Assembly (NCBI RefSeq): GCF_009662475.1
Contig: NZ_CP045571.1
Location: 928,501-992,500, forward strand
DNA from: Acidithiobacillus thiooxidans ATCC 19377
Lineage (GTDB): Bacteria; Pseudomonadota; Gammaproteobacteria; Acidithiobacillales; Acidithiobacillaceae
DNA: 64,000 nt
Direction of reading: 5' to 3'
Below the pieces are notes generated by a model, which saw only the letters and a program-made list of their open reading frames with translations, was not told the origin of the DNA and made no database searches. This document shows, in pieces, positions 15,001 to 44,584 of the stretch (positions within the stretch are counted from its first letter, which is position 1; the number at the start of each line of letters is the position of its first letter). Both the position numbers and the translations under genes were made by a program.

Positions 15001-16454
15001 ATCCAGCTGTGACAGAAACCGTGAATGACAGCATTTTTGCCCATGATCATCATATGCCGGTACCCAAAATGCCCGCTGATATACCCGAAGATTTACTCCG
15101 CAAAACACCGCTGAATTTGCCCAATGCTTCCGAACTGGATGTTTTGCGGCATTACACCCGCTTGTCGCAGAAAAATTTTTCTATTGATACCCAGTTTTAC
15201 CCACTGGGTTCCTGTACCATGAAATATAATCCGCGTATTGCCCATGCCATGGCTTCATTACCTGGTTTTGCCCGTCTGCATCCTGATACTCCGGCCCCCG
15301 CCATGCAGGGTTTGCTGCAGGTTCTCTGGGAGTTGCAGGAATGGCTGGCTGCGGCAACGGGCATGGCTGCGGTGAGTCTGACTCCGGCGGCAGGCGCCCA
15401 GGGTGAGCTGGCTGGCGTGGCCATGATTCGCGCTTATCATCGAGCACGGGGCGATGCCGGGCGCAACAAGATGCTGATTCCTACGGCGGCCCATGGTACC
15501 AATCCAGCCAGTGCGCAAATGGCCGGATTTGAGGTTATCGAAATCCCCAACCTGCCCGATGGTGATCTGGATATGGCCGCCTTGGATGCTCACCTGGGTC
15601 CGGATGTCGCGGGAATCATGCTTACCAATCCCTCGACTTTGGGGGTTTTTGAAAGACGTATTGCAGAAATTGCCCACCATGTGCATGCCGCCGGGGGCCT
15701 GCTTTACTATGATGGTGCCAACCTCAATGCCATTCTTGGCCGGGTTCAGCCCGGTCAGATGGGTTTTGATGTGATGCATCTGAACCTGCACAAAACCTTT
15801 GCCACTCCCCATGGTGGGGGTGGACCGGGGGCCGGTGCTGTGGCTGTGCAGGAACGCCTCAAGCCCTTTTTGCCACTGCCCACGGTTTTGAAAGAGCCGC
15901 ATGGGGCCTTGCGCTGGATGGGTGCCAAAGATCTCCCACAAAGTATTGGTCATTTAAGTGCACATGGTGGAAATATCGGCGTATTGCTGCGTGCTCATGC
16001 GTATCTTCGGCGACTGGGCCGTAGCGGTGTAGGGCGGGTATCCGCCTATGCTGCCCTCAATGCCAACTACCTGCTTAAAGAACTGCAGCGCCTGGGTTAT
16101 CAGGCGGCTTTCCCGGAGCGTCGTGCCAGTCATGAATTTATCCTGTCAGTGAGTGATTTGCACAAAGCCACAGGGATTCGTGCGCTGGATGTGGCAAAAC
16201 GGCTGCTGGACTTTGGGATACATGCTCCGACCATTTATTTTCCACAATTGGTGCCCGAATGTTTGCTCATAGAGCCGACCGAAACCGAAAGCAAGGCGAC
16301 GCTGGATCGTTTTGTCGCGGTGATGGCGCAGATTCGTCAGGAAGCGCTGGAGCAGCCGGAATTGCTGCGGGAAGCCCCCCATCATTTGCCGGTGGGTCGA
16401 CTGGATGAGGCGCTGGCCGCCCGCAGGCTGGACGTATCGGCAGCACCGGAATGA
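14997..16454 (+). CDS. gcvPB: GcvPB, glycine dehydrogenase subunit 2 (PLP-binding)
   Basis: The 485-residue product contains the PLP-binding lysine motif NLHKTFATPHGGGGPGAG near residue 265, along with FYPLGSCTMKYNPR and AAHGTNPASA, all diagnostic of the C-terminal half of glycine decarboxylase. I choose ATG 14997 (MNPAVTETVNDS), which overlaps the gcvPA TGA; the open frame extends 25 codons upstream but only within gcvPA. Its own stop overlaps the moxR start (ATGA at 16451). Confidence 0.96.
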   Translation: MNPAVTETVNDSIFAHDHHMPVPKMPADIPEDLLRKTPLNLPNASELDVLRHYTRLSQKNFSIDTQFYPLGSCTMKYNPRIAHAMASLPGFARLHPDTPAPAMQGLLQVLWELQEWLAAATGMAAVSLTPAAGAQGELAGVAMIRAYHRARGDAGRNKMLIPTAAHGTNPASAQMAGFEVIEIPNLPDGDLDMAALDAHLGPDVAGIMLTNPSTLGVFERRIAEIAHHVHAAGGLLYYDGANLNAILGRVQPGQMGFDVMHLNLHKTFATPHGGGGPGAGAVAVQERLKPFLPLPTVLKEPHGALRWMGAKDLPQSIGHLSAHGGNIGVLLRAHAYLRRLGRSGVGRVSAYAALNANYLLKELQRLGYQAAFPERRASHEFILSVSDLHKATGIRALDVAKRLLDFGIHAPTIYFPQLVPECLLIEPTETESKATLDRFVAVMAQIRQEALEQPELLREAPHHLPVGRLDEALAARRLDVSAAPE

Positions 16455-17395
16455 CAACCCATCCCCGTGAAGTATTGCGGGCAGCAGTCCAGCCAGAGCA
16501 ATTGCTGACCGCTTTGGCGAAGGTTCTGTTGGGTAAGGAAAGAGCCATACGCCTTGCCTTTACGGGCTTTTTGGCGGGTGGACACATTCTCGTCGAGGAT
16601 GTACCCGGCGTGGGTAAAACCACGCTGGCTTTGGGTCTGGCGCGACTTTTGGGTCTGGATTTTGCGCGCGTCCAGATGACCGCTGATATGTTGCCGGGAG
16701 ACATCCTCGGCAGCAGTATTTTTGATCCGCGCCAGCAAACTTTTGTTTTCCATCCCGGCCCGGTTTTCCATGGGGTGCTGCTCATGGATGAAATCAATCG
16801 GGCCTCTCCGCGCAGTCAATCGGCCTTGCTGGAGGCTATGGCTGAAGGGCAGGTTTCTGCGGATGGTCAAAGCATGGCTTTGCCTGATCCATTTTTTGTC
16901 ATAGCCACCCAGAATCCCCAGGAACACGCCGGGGTTTTCCCTTTACCGGAAAGCCAGCTGGACCGTTTTACCCTGCGGTTTTCTCTGGGGTATCCCGGTC
17001 GCGAGGCGGAACGCCTGTTGCTTCAGGGGAAAAACCAGCGCCCTGAAGATTTGCCGATTGTTGCGGAACGCAGTGTGTTGCAAGCCTGGCGACATGCGGT
17101 TACTGCCGTTTTTCTCAGCGCGGAAATTGAAGATATGCTTTTGCATATGGCCCGGTGCTCGCGCAACGACGAACGTCTGCGGATGGGGCTTTCACCCCGT
17201 GCTTTGCTGGCGCTTAAAGCCTCTGCCCAGGCTTGGGCTTTTATAGCGGGACGGGATTATGTGACGCCCGATGATTTGCGTTCTGTCGCCCTGGCGGTGT
17301 TGGGACATCGTCTGATTTCCACGGCGAATTTAGCCGGTGATGATCTGGCCGTGTTACTGGGACAAGAAGCCTGGGGTCTGGATATTCGTTTTTAA
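16451..17395 (+). CDS. moxR: MoxR-family AAA+ ATPase
   Basis: A 314-residue AAA+ protein with Walker A GVGKTT (about residue 55), Walker B LLMDEINR (about 115) and the MoxR signature ATQNPQEHAGVFPLPESQLDRF. MoxR ATPases are chaperone-like factors usually encoded beside DUF58 and transglutaminase or VWA proteins, as here. Its start overlaps the gcvPB stop, so it is transcribed with the glycine cleavage genes. A functional tie to glycine metabolism is not implied by the sequence. Confidence 0.92.
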   Translation: MTTHPREVLRAAVQPEQLLTALAKVLLGKERAIRLAFTGFLAGGHILVEDVPGVGKTTLALGLARLLGLDFARVQMTADMLPGDILGSSIFDPRQQTFVFHPGPVFHGVLLMDEINRASPRSQSALLEAMAEGQVSADGQSMALPDPFFVIATQNPQEHAGVFPLPESQLDRFTLRFSLGYPGREAERLLLQGKNQRPEDLPIVAERSVLQAWRHAVTAVFLSAEIEDMLLHMARCSRNDERLRMGLSPRALLALKASAQAWAFIAGRDYVTPDDLRSVALAVLGHRLISTANLAGDDLAVLLGQEAWGLDIRF

Positions 17396-17402
17396 GCGGG
17401 TC

Positions 17403-18368
17403 ATGAAGCGTAAACGCCGGGAGGTGCGTCTTTCCCGCCCAGGCAAAGTGTTTGTCGGCTTGACGCTGGCGCTGGGCTTTGCGGCCGTCAATACCGGCAA
17501 TAATGTTTTGTTTCTGCTGGTTTCGATGATGTTGTCCCTCATGGTGCTGTCGGGTTTTGTGGCTATGGCCAATATCTGGCGCGTGGATGTGGTCCTGCAA
17601 CCGCAGCAGATTCTGACAGCGGAACAGAGCGGAGATGTATTGCTGCGCGTGCGTAATGGTCGACCCTGGCCATTATGGTTGCTGGAACTGCGACTGGGTG
17701 CATCCCGGCAGACCGTAACCCGCATAGGGGGTCGTCAGGAAGCACTGGTCGCACTGCGCTGGTGTCCGGATCGACGCGGCCAGCCGCCGTTGCCCTTGTT
17801 GCAGATGGGTTCCGCCTTCCCTTTTTCTTTTGTGTGGCGGGGCCTGCAGGTCAACATTTCCGATGCAGACCTGCCCTGGGTTGCACCTGCGGGTGGAGAA
17901 GACATGGCTATGACTCAAAATTCGGGCGAACAGCTCCCGTCTTCAGACCGAGCCGGCGGGCAGGGGGATTTTCTCTGGATCCGTAACTGGCGTTCAGGAG
18001 AGAGTTTGCATCAGATCATCTGGCGACGCATAGACTGGTCCAGAAATCTTCCCGGGATCATGCATTTTCCCGGCCGAGAGCAGGAAAAAACCGGACAAGA
18101 ACAGGTATTGCTGGATTGGGAATCCCCTTTTTGGCTGGCATTTCCACCGGAGCAACGCCTGCGAATTTTTCGGGCAGCACTGGATAAAGCCTGGAATCTG
18201 GGTTGGTCATGGCAGTTGCTCATGCCAGCGGGCAGTAAAAGTGGTCAAGGCTCCGCCCAACGAGAAGATGCCTTGCGCATGCTGGCCCAGCATCTACCCC
18301 TGCCTCCTTCAAGCGCTGCCACGGAGGAGCGAGGCGGCTGGCTCAGGCACTGGCGATTCTGGCAATGA
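17403..18368 (+). CDS. DUF58 domain protein
   Basis: This protein has 321 residues from ATG 17403, eight bases after the moxR stop. Two adjacent hydrophobic helices near the N-terminus (about 14-60) precede a cytosolic domain containing GDFLWIRNWRSGESLHQIIWR, the conserved DUF58 segment. DUF58 proteins accompany MoxR ATPases and TgpA-like transglutaminases; the biochemical role is poorly known. The stop overlaps the next gene start (ATGA at 18365). Confidence 0.88.
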   Translation: MKRKRREVRLSRPGKVFVGLTLALGFAAVNTGNNVLFLLVSMMLSLMVLSGFVAMANIWRVDVVLQPQQILTAEQSGDVLLRVRNGRPWPLWLLELRLGASRQTVTRIGGRQEALVALRWCPDRRGQPPLPLLQMGSAFPFSFVWRGLQVNISDADLPWVAPAGGEDMAMTQNSGEQLPSSDRAGGQGDFLWIRNWRSGESLHQIIWRRIDWSRNLPGIMHFPGREQEKTGQEQVLLDWESPFWLAFPPEQRLRIFRAALDKAWNLGWSWQLLMPAGSKSGQGSAQREDALRMLAQHLPLPPSSAATEERGGWLRHWRFWQ

Positions 18369-20437
18369 GGAAAGCCACCTCATTGGTTTCTGCGCAGAAC
18401 GTCGGGCCCTTGCTGGCTGCACTGATGGGCTTGCTGGTTCTGCTCGCGCTGGGCCACGAGGTGGCCATCTGGGCCATTGTGCTGTGGTTGAGCGCTACAG
18501 GCCTGGGATTGTATGGCTCCTGGAAACAACACCCGCTTTGGTTTTCCGGTCGTCTGCGTCTGGTTGGAGGTTTGTTGTTTCTACTGTTGGCTTTTGTACT
18601 TTCCGGCTGGGGTAACTGGTTGGCCATAGCCAGCCAGTCGGTATTGGTACTGTTGGCTGTGAAAGCCCTGGAAATGCGTTCCCAGCGGGATTTTTATCAG
18701 GTAGCAGCGCTGGTGCTGCTGGGTATGGGGCTGGCGGCCTGGTTGCGTGTCGATGTCCTACTGGGTATTTATCTGCTGATTACCCTTTATCTGGCGCTGT
18801 TGGGTTTACTTTGGCAGCCCTTGGCCGATGCGGCCAGCGCAAGGGGTAGTGTCGCCCTGCAGGGCCGTGATTTTCGTTATATGCTGGTATTCAGTCTGGC
18901 TTTCATGGTGTTTTTACTACCCATGACCGGGCTGTTTTTTCTGCTCCTACCGCGTACGCCGACACCGCTCTGGGCCTGGGCTCCGCCCCAGGGGAGTGCG
19001 CGTTCCGGATTCAGTCCCGATTTGGCACCAGATCAGATCAGTCGTCTGGCCGAGGATCCGGCAGTGGCCTTTCGTGCCCAGATCACTCCCAGGCCGGAAA
19101 ATCCTGAGCAATTATATTGGGTGGGCGCGATTTTGTGGCATGACCAAGGGACCACCTGGGAGCCCGATCCACCTGCTGAAAAACTCTCTACAAGAGATGT
19201 GCAATCAGACAATCCGGACCAGTTACCAGCGGGGCCGCTCACCCGTCAGGAAATTGTAATCAGCCCTGGAGATAGCTCTTATCTTTTCGCCTTGTCATCC
19301 CCACGGCGCTGGCAAATTCCTTTGGCGCATCACGAACTATGGGATGGCGTCATGCAGTTGCAGAAGCCTCCCTCTCTGCCACTGCGCTACGTGGTCTGGT
19401 CAGGTGCCAGCCGTGTTCTAAGCCTCAGATCTGGCGTGCATCAAGCCGCTCTGCAGGTGCCGGCAACTACGCCATCGGCTATTGTGACTTTGGCAAAAAG
19501 TCTGGCAGGTCATACTCCTAATCAAACTATTGAACATTTAATGCATTGGTTTCGGGGGCCATCCTTTCATTATAGCCTGAAGGCGCCAGCCGCTTATCCG
19601 CACGGGCAGACGATGGCGGATTTTCTGCTGCATTCTCATACCGGCTTTTGTGAATATTATGCGGGAGGCCTCGCGCTTTTATTGCGTCTGGATGGTGTCC
19701 CTGCACGTGTGGTTACCGGTTATCATGGTGGCGAATATAATCCTGTCGGTCATTACTGGCTGGTGCGCCAGAGTATGGCCCACGCCTGGGTACAGGCCTG
19801 GATTGCCGGAAAAGGCTGGGTACGCCTGGATGCCACGCCAGCGGCTGCGGCAACTGGACTAAATAGTAACGGGAATAGCGGGGCCTTTGCCGCCGATGAA
19901 GTTCCGGCAGCACAGCGGGTATGGGACTGGCTGCAGTGGGAATGGATTAACACCGTCATTGATTTGACCCCGGCCAAACAACGATCACTCTGGACTTCTG
20001 CCGGGTTGCAGTTTTTGCATTTTTTCCAAAGCAGCCAGACTTCCAGTCAGAAAATCCTGCATTCTCCACGACATTGGTCCGGATTTAGTGCGCAGCAACC
20101 TGCCTGGCGCGTGATAGTGGGAATTTTCGCGCTGCTTGGCCTGGTCCTGCTATGGGTCTGGTATCGGCGTAGACAGGCAACGCGAAATACAAATGCCCAT
20201 GATTACTGGCGCCACCGGGCCATAGAAGCACTGCATGGTCTCGGTTTGAAAGATGCTCGTCCTGGCCAGGAAAGCGTTTTTTGTGGGACATTACCGTTTG
20301 ATTCGACGCTCCGTAATCAGTTGTTGCAGCACTATTCCCTGCAGCGCTATGGACCACATCCTGATGCGGATGGGGATGCCAAGCTGCAGGCCATTATTGT
20401 GCAAATGCGTCATAACAGCAGTACGGGATGTGATTGA
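18365..20437 (+). CDS. TgpA-like membrane transglutaminase (DUF3488 + transglutaminase core)
   Basis: This 690-residue protein has six or so N-terminal membrane helices (to about 200), a periplasmic domain and one more helix near 590. The transglutaminase-like triad is visible: Cys about 429 in HTGFCEYYAGG, His about 472 in AHAWVQAW, and Asp about 488 in VRLDATPA. That layout is the TgpA/DUF3488 family, known as an essential periplasmic-facing enzyme in Pseudomonas aeruginosa; its substrate is unknown. It is the last gene of the moxR-DUF58-tgpA module, and a structured repeat begins 14 bases after its stop. Confidence 0.9.
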   Translation: MRKATSLVSAQNVGPLLAALMGLLVLLALGHEVAIWAIVLWLSATGLGLYGSWKQHPLWFSGRLRLVGGLLFLLLAFVLSGWGNWLAIASQSVLVLLAVKALEMRSQRDFYQVAALVLLGMGLAAWLRVDVLLGIYLLITLYLALLGLLWQPLADAASARGSVALQGRDFRYMLVFSLAFMVFLLPMTGLFFLLLPRTPTPLWAWAPPQGSARSGFSPDLAPDQISRLAEDPAVAFRAQITPRPENPEQLYWVGAILWHDQGTTWEPDPPAEKLSTRDVQSDNPDQLPAGPLTRQEIVISPGDSSYLFALSSPRRWQIPLAHHELWDGVMQLQKPPSLPLRYVVWSGASRVLSLRSGVHQAALQVPATTPSAIVTLAKSLAGHTPNQTIEHLMHWFRGPSFHYSLKAPAAYPHGQTMADFLLHSHTGFCEYYAGGLALLLRLDGVPARVVTGYHGGEYNPVGHYWLVRQSMAHAWVQAWIAGKGWVRLDATPAAAATGLNSNGNSGAFAADEVPAAQRVWDWLQWEWINTVIDLTPAKQRSLWTSAGLQFLHFFQSSQTSSQKILHSPRHWSGFSAQQPAWRVIVGIFALLGLVLLWVWYRRRQATRNTNAHDYWRHRAIEALHGLGLKDARPGQESVFCGTLPFDSTLRNQLLQHYSLQRYGPHPDADGDAKLQAIIVQMRHNSSTGCD

Positions 20438-20451
20438 ACGAGCGAAGCAGA

Positions 20452-20641
20452 AATCTGTGGTGAAGGGTGCATACTTTCTGCTCCCTTGTCCCTTGCCTGT
20501 TGTTCTAAGGCTCATCCTGCTGTCAGGAGAGAACTCGCCCTTTGGGCTCAAACAGCTCTCCTGACGGGCGCTGGATTTCGCCAAGAACAACAACGGCTCA
20601 GGCCAAAAGTCGCAGAAAGTATGCACCCTTCACCACAGATT
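20452..20641 (+). repeat. Structured intergenic element, copy 1 (190 bp, 30-bp terminal stem)
   Basis: The first 30 bases (20452-20481) and last 30 (20612-20641) are perfectly complementary. Inside is a core shared with copies at 23458 and 44388: GCCTGTTGTTCT facing AGAACAACAACGGC, a 10-bp stem GTCAGGAGAG/CTCTCCTGAC, a small hairpin GCCCTTTGGGC within it, and GGCG..CGCC. The terminal stem sequence is unrelated to that of the other copies although it occupies the same position. It begins 14 bases after the tgpA stop and ends 15 bases before the stop of the convergent msbA gene. A role in transcription ending or RNA stability is inference. Confidence 0.88.
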
Positions 20642-20655
20642 CCAGACGGATTAAC

Positions 20656-22320
20656 CTAGGAAATCACTTTCCCCCGTTCCAGCCGAATGACCTGATCAGC
20701 CATACGGGTGGTGCGGGGTCGATGGGCGACAATGAGAATGGTTTTTTTGCCGTGCAGTTCTGCGAGGGTTTCGGCAATGCGTTCTTCGCTTTCGCTGTCG
20801 AGATTGCTGGTCGCCTCATCCAGTACCAGCACGGGGCGATCCAGATACAGTGCGCGGGCAATGGCCAGACGCTGCCGCTGACCTCCGGAAAAATTCGCGC
20901 CATTCCCCTGGATGGGACTGTCCAGTCCGCCACTCAGGGCCAGAAAATCCCAGGCATGCGCCTGCCGGGCAGCAATTTCGGCGCGATGAGGATCGGGAGT
21001 GTCCTCACCGTAAGCAATATTGCTGAGGGCGCTGCCACTGAACAAAACCGGCTCTTGCGCTACAAAGCTGAAATAACTCCGATAGTCTCCCGCAGGGATC
21101 TGGTTTTTATCCATTCCCGCCACTGTAATGCGGCCACTGCTGGCCGGTAGCAGGCCCAGAATCACCCGTATCAGGCTGGTTTTGCCGCTGCCACTGGGGC
21201 CCACAAAGGCGGTGGTGCTGAGCGGTGGAATGCAAATATCCAGTCCCTGAAGGATGGATTCCTGGCCCAGTTGCAGGCGTAGGTCGTGACATTGCCAGGT
21301 CCCCCAGGGACGTGGTTCAGTGGTGCTGACAGTCTGTTCCGAAGGTTGATCCAGCCAGGCAAAAAGCCGGTCTGCGGCTGACAACCCTTGCTGTAACTGA
21401 TTGTTGGCGGAAGAGAGTTGCCGCAGAGGTTCGTAAATCAGACCCAAGGCCGTAAAAAAACTGAAAAAGGCGCCGGTGCTCATGTTGCCATTGACGACCT
21501 GACTGCCGCCCAGGTAGATGATGGCGGCAATCCCCAAAGCGGCGATCATTTCCATGACCGGCACGGTGGCTTTCTGAATCCGGGCGATTTGCATCATCAA
21601 TTCGAAATAGTGCCGGGCCTGCTGACCAAAGCGTCTGGCCTCGAAAGGCTCACCCCCCTGGCTTTTAATGACTTCCACACCGCGCAGGCTCTGCGAAAAT
21701 TGATCCATGATTTCACCCATCTGTTCCTGCTGGGAGTTGCCTCTCTGGCGCAGTTTCTGACCAAAGCGAATCAGGGGATAAAAGGCGATGGGCAGAGTTA
21801 TGAGACTGATGAGCGCCAGCTTCCAGCTCATGTAAAACACCACGAAAAGCAGGGCGACAATCTGGAAGCTGGAAAGAAAAAAGCGCGCCAGCACCGAGAG
21901 ACCCTGCTGGAGCAGGGTCAGATCCAGACTCATCCGTGACAGGGTGCTGCCATGACTGTGATCAATGAGGACTTCCAGGGGAAGACGCAGGGTGTGGCCG
22001 AAGAGGTTTTCCCGCAGACCGCGTAAAACCTCTTCCTCCACCCGGGCCAGATTGATGGCCTGGAGATAATCGGCAATACCCTTGACCGCGTAGATCAGGA
22101 TGACCCCTAAGGGCAGCCAGACCAGCATGCTGACCTGGTGATCAATGAATATCCGATCCAGCACGGGTTTGATGATGTAAGCCATGGCACCCATGGCCGC
22201 ACCAGATATCACCATAAAGAACATGGCTACGGCGACACGTCCCCGGTGGGGGCGCACCAGACCGAGAAGACGGTGAAAGCTTTGCGAACGCAGTGCAGCA
22301 GAAGCGCTATCCGCGCTCAC
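20656..22320 (-). CDS. msbA: MsbA-type lipid A/phospholipid ABC exporter
   Basis: A 554-residue fused ABC exporter with six membrane helices in the N-terminal half and one ATPase domain: Walker [10 protein letters not shown] near 377, signature FSGGQRQR, Walker [10 protein letters not shown]. Size and the [13 protein letters not shown] segment after the first helix match MsbA, which flips lipid A-core across the inner membrane. The start is GTG at 22320 and overlaps the ferredoxin stop (GTGA). The pairing with a ferredoxin gene is unusual and probably only reflects gene packing. Confidence 0.88.
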
Positions 22321-23457: not shown

Positions 23458-23657
23458 TGAAAACGGCGGGTAGTAGCCGGGAGGCTTTTTGCTCCAACGT
23501 CCCTTGCCTGTTTTTCTAAGGCTCATCCTGCTGTCAGGAGAGAACTCGCCCTTTGGGCTCAAATAGCTCTCCTGACGGGCGCAGGCTTTCGCCAAGAACA
23601 ACGACGGCGCGGGCCAAAGTCGCGGCAAAGCCTCCCGGCTACCACCCGCCGTTTTCA
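23458..23657 (+). repeat. Structured intergenic element, copy 2 (200 bp)
   Basis: It has the same core as copy 1 (GTCAGGAGAG/CTCTCCTGAC, GCCCTTTGGGC, the TTTTTCTAAGG/CCAAGAACAAC pair) and the same orientation. The terminal stem is about 30 bp: TGAAAACGGCGGGTAGTAGC opposite GCTACCACCCGCCGTTTTCA with one A-C mismatch, continuing with CGGGAGGCTTT/AAAGCCTCCCG. This stem differs completely from that of copy 1. The element starts 14 bases after the ahpC stop and is followed by a T-rich hairpin. Confidence 0.88.
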
Positions 23658-28201: not shown

Positions 28202-28256
28202 GCCCAACAACGGCGCGGGACAAAGTCGCGGCAAAGCCTTCAGGCTCTCTGCCGTT
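28178..28256 (+). repeat. Shortened structured-element remnant overlapping the end of rlmB
   Basis: The left edge CTGAAAACGGCGG (28178-28190) matches the start of copy 2. The right part, CAACAACGGCGCGGGACAAA then GTCGCGGCAAAGCC, matches the 3' third of the family. The entire central core (the CAGGAGAG stem and GCCC/GGGC hairpin) is missing. AACGGC at 28183 can still pair with GCCGTT at 28251-28256. The left end lies inside rlmB and supplies its last codons and stop. I read it as an internal-deletion derivative of the element. Confidence 0.7.
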
Positions 28257-44387: not shown

Positions 44388-44584
44388 CTGAAAGCAGTCG
44401 TGGTCCGGGAAACTTTTTGCTCCATTGTTCCTTGCCTGTTGTTCTAAGACTCATCCTGCTGTCAGGAGAGAACTCGCCCTACGGGCTCAAACAGCTCTCC
44501 TGACGGGGGCTGGATTTCGCCAAGAACAACAACGGCTCAGAACAAAAGTCGCTGCAAAGCCTCCCGGACCAAGACCGCTTTCAG
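44388..44584 (+). repeat. Structured intergenic element, copy 3 (197 bp)
   Basis: The core is nearly identical to copies 1 and 2. The GTCAGGAGAG/CTCTCCTGAC stem is unchanged; the inner hairpin loop differs (GCCC-TAC-GGGC instead of TTT) but its stem is kept. The terminal stem (CTGAAAGC ... TGGTCCGGGA opposite TCCCGGACCA ... GCTTTCAG) is similar to that of copy 2, with several mismatches. It lies between the DUF4845 gene and rnc, so it is probably transcribed within or at the end of an operon. Confidence 0.87.

Follow-up and report, generated by a model that had tools for sequence, protein, structure and literature searches.

A MITE-like hairpin element of Acidithiobacillus with arms that change in concert and a core found in both orientations

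How does one copy of a repeated DNA element acquire ends that pair perfectly with each other over 30 bp and resemble the ends of no neighbouring copy, when the core between them is the same? The question is raised by positions 20452-20641 of the window, the stretch of 64,000 nucleotides from Acidithiobacillus thiooxidans ATCC 19377 that was analysed here. A sequence-only reading of this stretch had offered two kinds of answer: recent creation of the stem, for example by template switching or intrastrand gene conversion, or insertion of the core into a palindrome that was already present. By comparing the copy with its orthologs and with the rest of its family, we arrive at a third: the element is probably an inherited, MITE-like hairpin whose arms copy each other and whose spacer flips by exchange between the arms.

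The stem of this copy (copy 1, Table 1) was described correctly, with 30 bp and no mismatch around a 130-bp spacer, and pairing extends inward, imperfectly, to 53 nt at 81%. Among inverted repeats with spacers of up to 250 it is the longest perfect one in the window; the only other of at least 16 bp is the 16-bp stem of copy 2, and ten mononucleotide shuffles yielded a single perfect repeat of that class in total. Folded as single-stranded DNA, positions 20445-20648 reach -65.4 kcal/mol, compared with -26.55 (sd 3.3) for 200 shuffles (z -11.8). The copy separates the 3' ends of a convergent gene pair: one ORF stops at 20437, and the other, on the minus strand, ends at 20656. The earlier reading named them tgpA and msbA (the latter looks by eye like an ABC transporter); their stop codons would be only 28 bp apart if the element were removed. 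Rfam gave no match to the element and one sub-threshold match outside it; plasmid and phage collections gave no match to it, and a promoter and terminator scan found nothing.

Table 1. Positions of copy 1 and of the other family members in the window
Feature	Position	Strand	Remarks
Left arm, copy 1	20452..20481	+	perfect complement of the right arm
Spacer, copy 1	20482..20611	+	imperfect hairpin in its own right
Conserved 140-bp family core	20474..20613	+	overlaps the inner ends of the copy 1 arms
Right arm, copy 1	20612..20641	+	aligns with core-less sequence beside msbA in A. concretivorus, less clearly in HP-2
Copy 2	23458..23657	+	core 23485-23623; arms of 31 columns, one mismatch
Partial copy	28205..28256	+	3' end of core and right arm; outer end set by eye
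Copy 3	44388..44584	+	core 44413-44552; imperfect arms, 25/29

The core is indeed common to the other full copies of the window, with 91.4% identity to copy 2 and 93.6% to copy 3, and the ends of copy 1 are indeed unlike theirs. Against all non-orthologous arms of the family, the outer arm reaches a best score of 14.0, and shuffled letters average 14.7 (p 0.73, 300 shuffles); its similarity score to five consensus-like arms, 12, is tied for the lowest of 157 copies. Only the innermost CTTT.TGC looks family-like by eye, and the inner junction is equal on both sides (CTTTCTGC), being unequal in most copies. By alignment, the arms of copy 1 thus do not appear linkable to those of the family.

The window's genome is a single contig of 3.42 Mb; the other element-bearing genomes are drafts. 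When it was searched with the copy 1 stretch, 41 matches were obtained; as one of these is the reverse match of the palindromic element to itself, the core was matched at 40 places, some of them fragments, with copies of about 190-200 bp. The family was matched in 8 of 30 genomes including its own, or 7 of 29 relatives. The matches listed include at least eight carriers: A. sulfurivorans, A. concretivorus, Acidithiobacillus sp. HP-2, SulCav (labelled A. ferrivorans and assembled from a metagenome), A. marinus, A. montserratensis, A. sulfuriphilus and a proteobacterial bin; those among the matches listed that bear a genus name belong to Acidithiobacillus. Orthology, arms and ORFs were called with custom scripts. 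Merging of loci gave 245 places, reduced to 193 by removal of duplicates and to 157 with both arms readable, a set that leaves out 36 loci with short flanks or incomplete cores and retains one copy (L099) with a trivial 6-nt arm match. Simple ORF calling gave both neighbours for 36 copies of the window's genome, 19 in convergent, 13 in tandem and 4 in divergent settings; in the tandem settings the core runs with transcription in six cases and against it in seven.

Bacterial MITEs are short, are present in many copies, and have terminal inverted repeats, a target duplication and the ends of an insertion sequence. The element, short, multi-copy and dispersed, is like them in all of these traits. 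Target duplication was tested, after a crude removal of orthologs, at 36 loci where both ends of the element read CCTrAAAAC. For a length of 5 bp, 134 of 180 positions agree, compared with 92.5 when right flanks are shuffled, and perfect repeats occur at 12 of the 36 loci where 1.7 are expected (highest shuffle 7); at the same loci, perfect repeats are not in excess for lengths of 3, 4, 6, 7 or 8. Empty sites point the same way. Fifteen of 20 site comparisons entered an arm test, the five omitted being truncated elements or repeated sites; the test recognised both partly deleted sites entered and found the arm absent throughout the 13 empty-site comparisons (lowest p 0.13), which cover nine loci other than copy 1 and include several sites from distant species, whose flanks are about 68-85% identical. 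Target duplication is thus a feature of the copies with canonical ends, and the terminal repeats are likewise conserved in the CCTrAAAAC-ended copies and not in copy 1 and other low-similarity copies. In this the element differs from MITEs, since not every copy keeps the common terminal repeats and pairing persists as the sequence drifts.

The canonical terminal sequence, CCTAAAAACAGCAGTT, also precedes a broken transposase gene, which matches IS1380 (134.8 bits) and Pfam DDE_Tnp_1_4. The resemblance to the IS1380 family lies in these common ends; the difference is that the match falls under the NCBIfam cut-off of 180 and that the window's own genome has no IS1380 match over it. As the ends are shared with a broken, sub-cut-off copy in a genome with no match over the cut-off, we infer only that an IS1380-like enzyme may have mobilised the element. 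A study that surveyed the insertion sequences of the genus (PMC10214660) describes IS1380 as rare outside A. caldus, and neither 'MITE' nor 'miniature' occurs in its main text. The 5-bp duplications, the empty sites without core or arms, and the IS1380-like ends together mean that the family behaves like a MITE and, therefore, that the arms travel with the element. Insertion of the core into pre-existing palindromes would account for arms that differ between copies, but the arms are absent from all 13 empty-site comparisons and the 5-bp duplication lies outside the canonical arms, making this half of the original proposal the most improbable of the explanations that we considered.

Across the 157 copies the arms have a median length of 30 and a mean arm-to-arm identity of 95%, and they are perfect in 54. 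Thirty copies score below 25 against the five consensus-like arms, and outer arms no better than shuffled letters are found also at L042, L195 and L124, among several others. The perfect repeat had been called unique to copy 1; within the window it is, but in A. sulfurivorans the orthologous copy shares its arms, and outside the window further copies carry private arms of low similarity.

A direct view of how such arms change comes from comparing orthologs, for which 42 representative pairs, one per orthologous group, supplied 1217 columns. Differences fall at 113 columns between the left arms and at 107 between the right arms, and at 62 columns both arms have moved to the same new state, where a chance model that takes even mutability along the arm expects 17.9 by position and gives at most 32 in 20,000 draws. 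These concerted columns comprise 32 transitions, 23 transversions and 7 indel columns. Symmetric indels separate close orthologs, for example at four columns between L156 and L094 and at three between copy 2 and L141. The inner junction, usually unequal with TT before GCTCC on the left and GCN before GCGAC on the right, is equal and non-standard in 10 of the 157 copies, some left-like and some right-like, with copy 1 and its ortholog being two of the ten; such junctions suggest that copying passes the border of the stem.

Could selection for a paired RNA stem or DNA cruciform, acting through compensatory mutation, produce the same pattern? The stable fold of copy 1 and the 95% average complementarity of the arms over 157 copies are what it would predict. 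For an RNA stem, however, mismatches of the G-U type should be tolerated over those of the A-C type, and on the core strand the arms within copies show 62 of the former and 68 of the latter (p 0.66), besides 89 transversion mismatches. Nor is there a transition excess: transversions make up 23 of the 55 concerted substitutions (42%), compared with 1397 of 3545 substitutions (39%) in the flanks, and there is therefore no sign of passage through G-U pairs. The missing Rfam match at the element counts against an RNA as well. The mismatch tests thus speak against selection on an RNA strand and are compatible with selection on a DNA cruciform; under either form, the symmetric indels and the frequent inversion described below need another cause, and we regard selection as quite improbable.

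The second line of evidence concerns the orientation of the core between flanks that stay in place. There are 102 ortholog pairs, of which 80, in 42 groups, have both flanks matched, and the core is asymmetric enough to be oriented (reverse match 80.6 bits versus 381). Forty pairs have the same orientation and 40 are inverted, a count in which pairs within a group are not independent; both orientations are present in 24 of the 42 groups. Removal of four doubtful pairs involving L044, with flank identity of about 64%, leaves 39 same and 37 flipped, and where flank identity is at least 97%, three of five pairs are flipped. Within the window, both other full copies have a flipped ortholog in A. 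concretivorus, and for copy 2 a symmetric indel of 3 nt in each arm further sets this ortholog apart. A. concretivorus further has a full copy (L141) at the place orthologous to the window's partial copy.

With half of the ortholog pairs flipped, a site-specific invertase acting on the core, as in an inverton, might be suspected. Flips are found, however, in groups whose arms are not significantly like other arms (L124/L257 and L177/L151), which means that the arms do not amount to a single, fixed recombination site; flips occur also in groups of weak arm likeness (L234/L134 and L035/L036). The common inner junction GCTTT could be such a site, and we consider an invertase improbable overall. 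The flips might instead be artefacts of assembly, since the arms are inverted repeats of about 30 bp and all carriers other than the window's genome are drafts. Against this, the orientation assignments are consistent in the 14 groups with at least three members, where such consistency is informative, the arms are shorter than usual assembly words, and the concerted changes of the arms would be left unexplained. Misassembly is accordingly a very unlikely source of the flips.

Copying from arm to arm and inversion of the spacer explain these data better than base-by-base compensation, and for the family the earlier suggestion of template switching or arm-to-arm conversion is supported, by 62 concerted columns where about 18 are expected, by symmetric indels and equalised junctions, and by 40 inverted pairs among 80. 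A single process probably underlies both outcomes. The whole element would fold into one long hairpin, favouring exchange between its arms, either as strand exchange or as polymerase template switching; when resolved without inversion, the exchange would copy a change in one arm into the other, and when resolved with inversion, it would flip the spacer. Repeated over time, this would yield copies with private, well-paired stems, and the same drift would have rendered the outer arm of copy 1 unrecognisable. Several findings weigh against this reading or bound it. Fifty-one of the 113 left-arm changes and 45 of the 107 right-arm changes are unmatched in the other arm; copying is not immediate, as only 54 of 157 stems are perfect; and the persistence of the unequal inner junction in most copies requires copying to end where the first internal loop is reached. 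Insertion depth correlates weakly with loss of arm likeness (rho -0.27, p 0.08), which lends weak support to the idea that this loss tracks insertion age. The draft state of the other carriers and the described rarity of IS1380 in the genus outside A. caldus also count against the reading. A bolder possibility, which we put forward tentatively, is that the elements invert spontaneously, with no dedicated recombinase, and often enough for both orientations to coexist within one population, and that arm copying is a self-repair of the hairpin.

Small inversions between inverted repeats have precedents. In chloroplasts, hairpin-associated minute inversions turn the loop between short inverted repeats; the element is like them in the inverted loop, and differs in that those are plastid events at single loci with short loops. 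REP and BIME repeats, short REP palindromes with a RAYT transposase, differ from it in size and architecture. For inverted repeats in yeast, the study of Abraham and Hazkani-Covo (2021, PMC8604942) attributes both the homogenisation of arms and the inversion of spacers to template switching and tabulates ten spacer inversions, in which the arms measure 10-16 bp and the spacers 2-5 bp, and that of Monttinen and Loytynoja (2022, PMC8794818) describes template switching that creates and repairs the stems of RNA genes. The element resembles what is set out there in having homogenisation and inversion as twin outcomes and in flip-flopping within a short evolutionary time; unlike the yeast cases, it is a bacterial element dispersed in many copies and has a spacer of about 130-140 bp. 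A literature search, with subscription journals mostly outside its coverage, found no paper describing this family among the titles listed.

The family offers a natural experiment: its hairpins are replicated many times over, each between flanks that are known, and arm homogenisation and spacer inversion could be measured in them side by side. It also carries a warning: paired, covarying arms in intergenic repeats are usually taken as a sign of functional RNA, but a stem can come to covary with no selection acting on an RNA, and here the patterns of mismatches, transversions, indels and inversions point to a mutational cause.

Returning to copy 1, its ortholog in A. sulfurivorans has identical arms (26/26 columns) at the same site and in the same orientation, with a core 99.2% and flanks 95.7% identical. 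Such core identity is not exceptional, as one other pair reaches 99.2% and eight reach 98.4%. With these arms present at one site in both genomes, the stem is not a recent product of this strain; it dates back at least to the split from A. sulfurivorans and is probably older. The proposed recent creation is thus not supported, the arms being the same in a genome whose flanks differ by about 4-5%. Ordinary vertical descent, with arms slowly diverging together with the core, had been named as the contrary outcome, and it holds in part: the arms are inherited, but they are unchanged between the two genomes rather than slowly diverged.

The suggested comparison of tgpA-msbA regions was likewise informative in part, revealing the same arms in A. 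sulfurivorans but no clean, alignable empty site for copy 1 among 17 genomes of the genus. Three relatives have a sequence beside msbA that resembles the right arm: the likeness is clearest in A. concretivorus (p <0.001 by a lenient and 0.055 by a strict test), weaker in HP-2 (0.03 and 0.44) and weakest in SulCav (0.19 and 0.93). In A. concretivorus and HP-2 it runs on into the msbA flank, and the core and left arm are absent. All three lack the tgpA operon at this place, and a moxR-like stub joins the inner edge of the arm-like sequence, most clearly in SulCav (gene names by eye). A. montserratensis and A. marinus have a tgpA-like gene beside msbA with neither element nor arm, and the short gap between the genes cannot be aligned.

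This arm-like sequence can be read in two ways, as a remnant of the element or as host DNA that was copied to give the left arm. On the second, the stem would have arisen in one step, the right arm being native DNA beside msbA and the left arm its template-switched, reverse-complement copy placed next to a truncated element. The core-less, right-arm-like sequence of the three relatives is what such an origin would leave, and so are copy 1 arms that match no family arm. But those same relatives lack the tgpA operon and carry the moxR-like stub at the edge, so that the sequence may be an element relic; and in two outgroups (L053 and L054) with a tgpA-like gene beside msbA the short gap is without the arm (strict p 0.17 and 0.90). 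A like pattern at L033, where by eye the arm is present once and without a core in A. concretivorus and absent in the window's genome, HP-2, A. sulfurivorans and two outgroups, favours relics at that locus. We thus regard a one-step stem as doubtful. Under the preferred reading, an inherited hairpin with arms that copy each other, the outer arm of copy 1 would have drifted by arm copying until it could no longer be recognised, an extrapolation from the family to this copy.

Some further observations concern the same locus and its family. The moxR-like / tgpA-like operon at window positions 16451-20437 is absent beside msbA in the relatives L049, L050 and L052, with the junction lying near the inner border of the right arm of copy 1. 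Elsewhere in the window's genome, core-less mini-palindromes like AAAACGGCAGTTGCCGTTTT are present at 406198, 2050662 and 336781 (L201, L200 and L204), apparently left by deletion between short repeats of the two arms; the one at 336781 resembles by eye the orthologous site of L148. In SulCav, at one locus (L179, compared with L018 and L185), the core is mostly deleted and a stem is still present. At genome positions 3150288-3151347 (L202) an element core is split by about 0.9 kb of what looks by eye like an IS110-type insertion. Finally, at 2415933-2418385 (L198), one end of the broken IS1380-like element appears by eye twice, facing inward, close to transporter-like ORFs, which suggests a local rearrangement.
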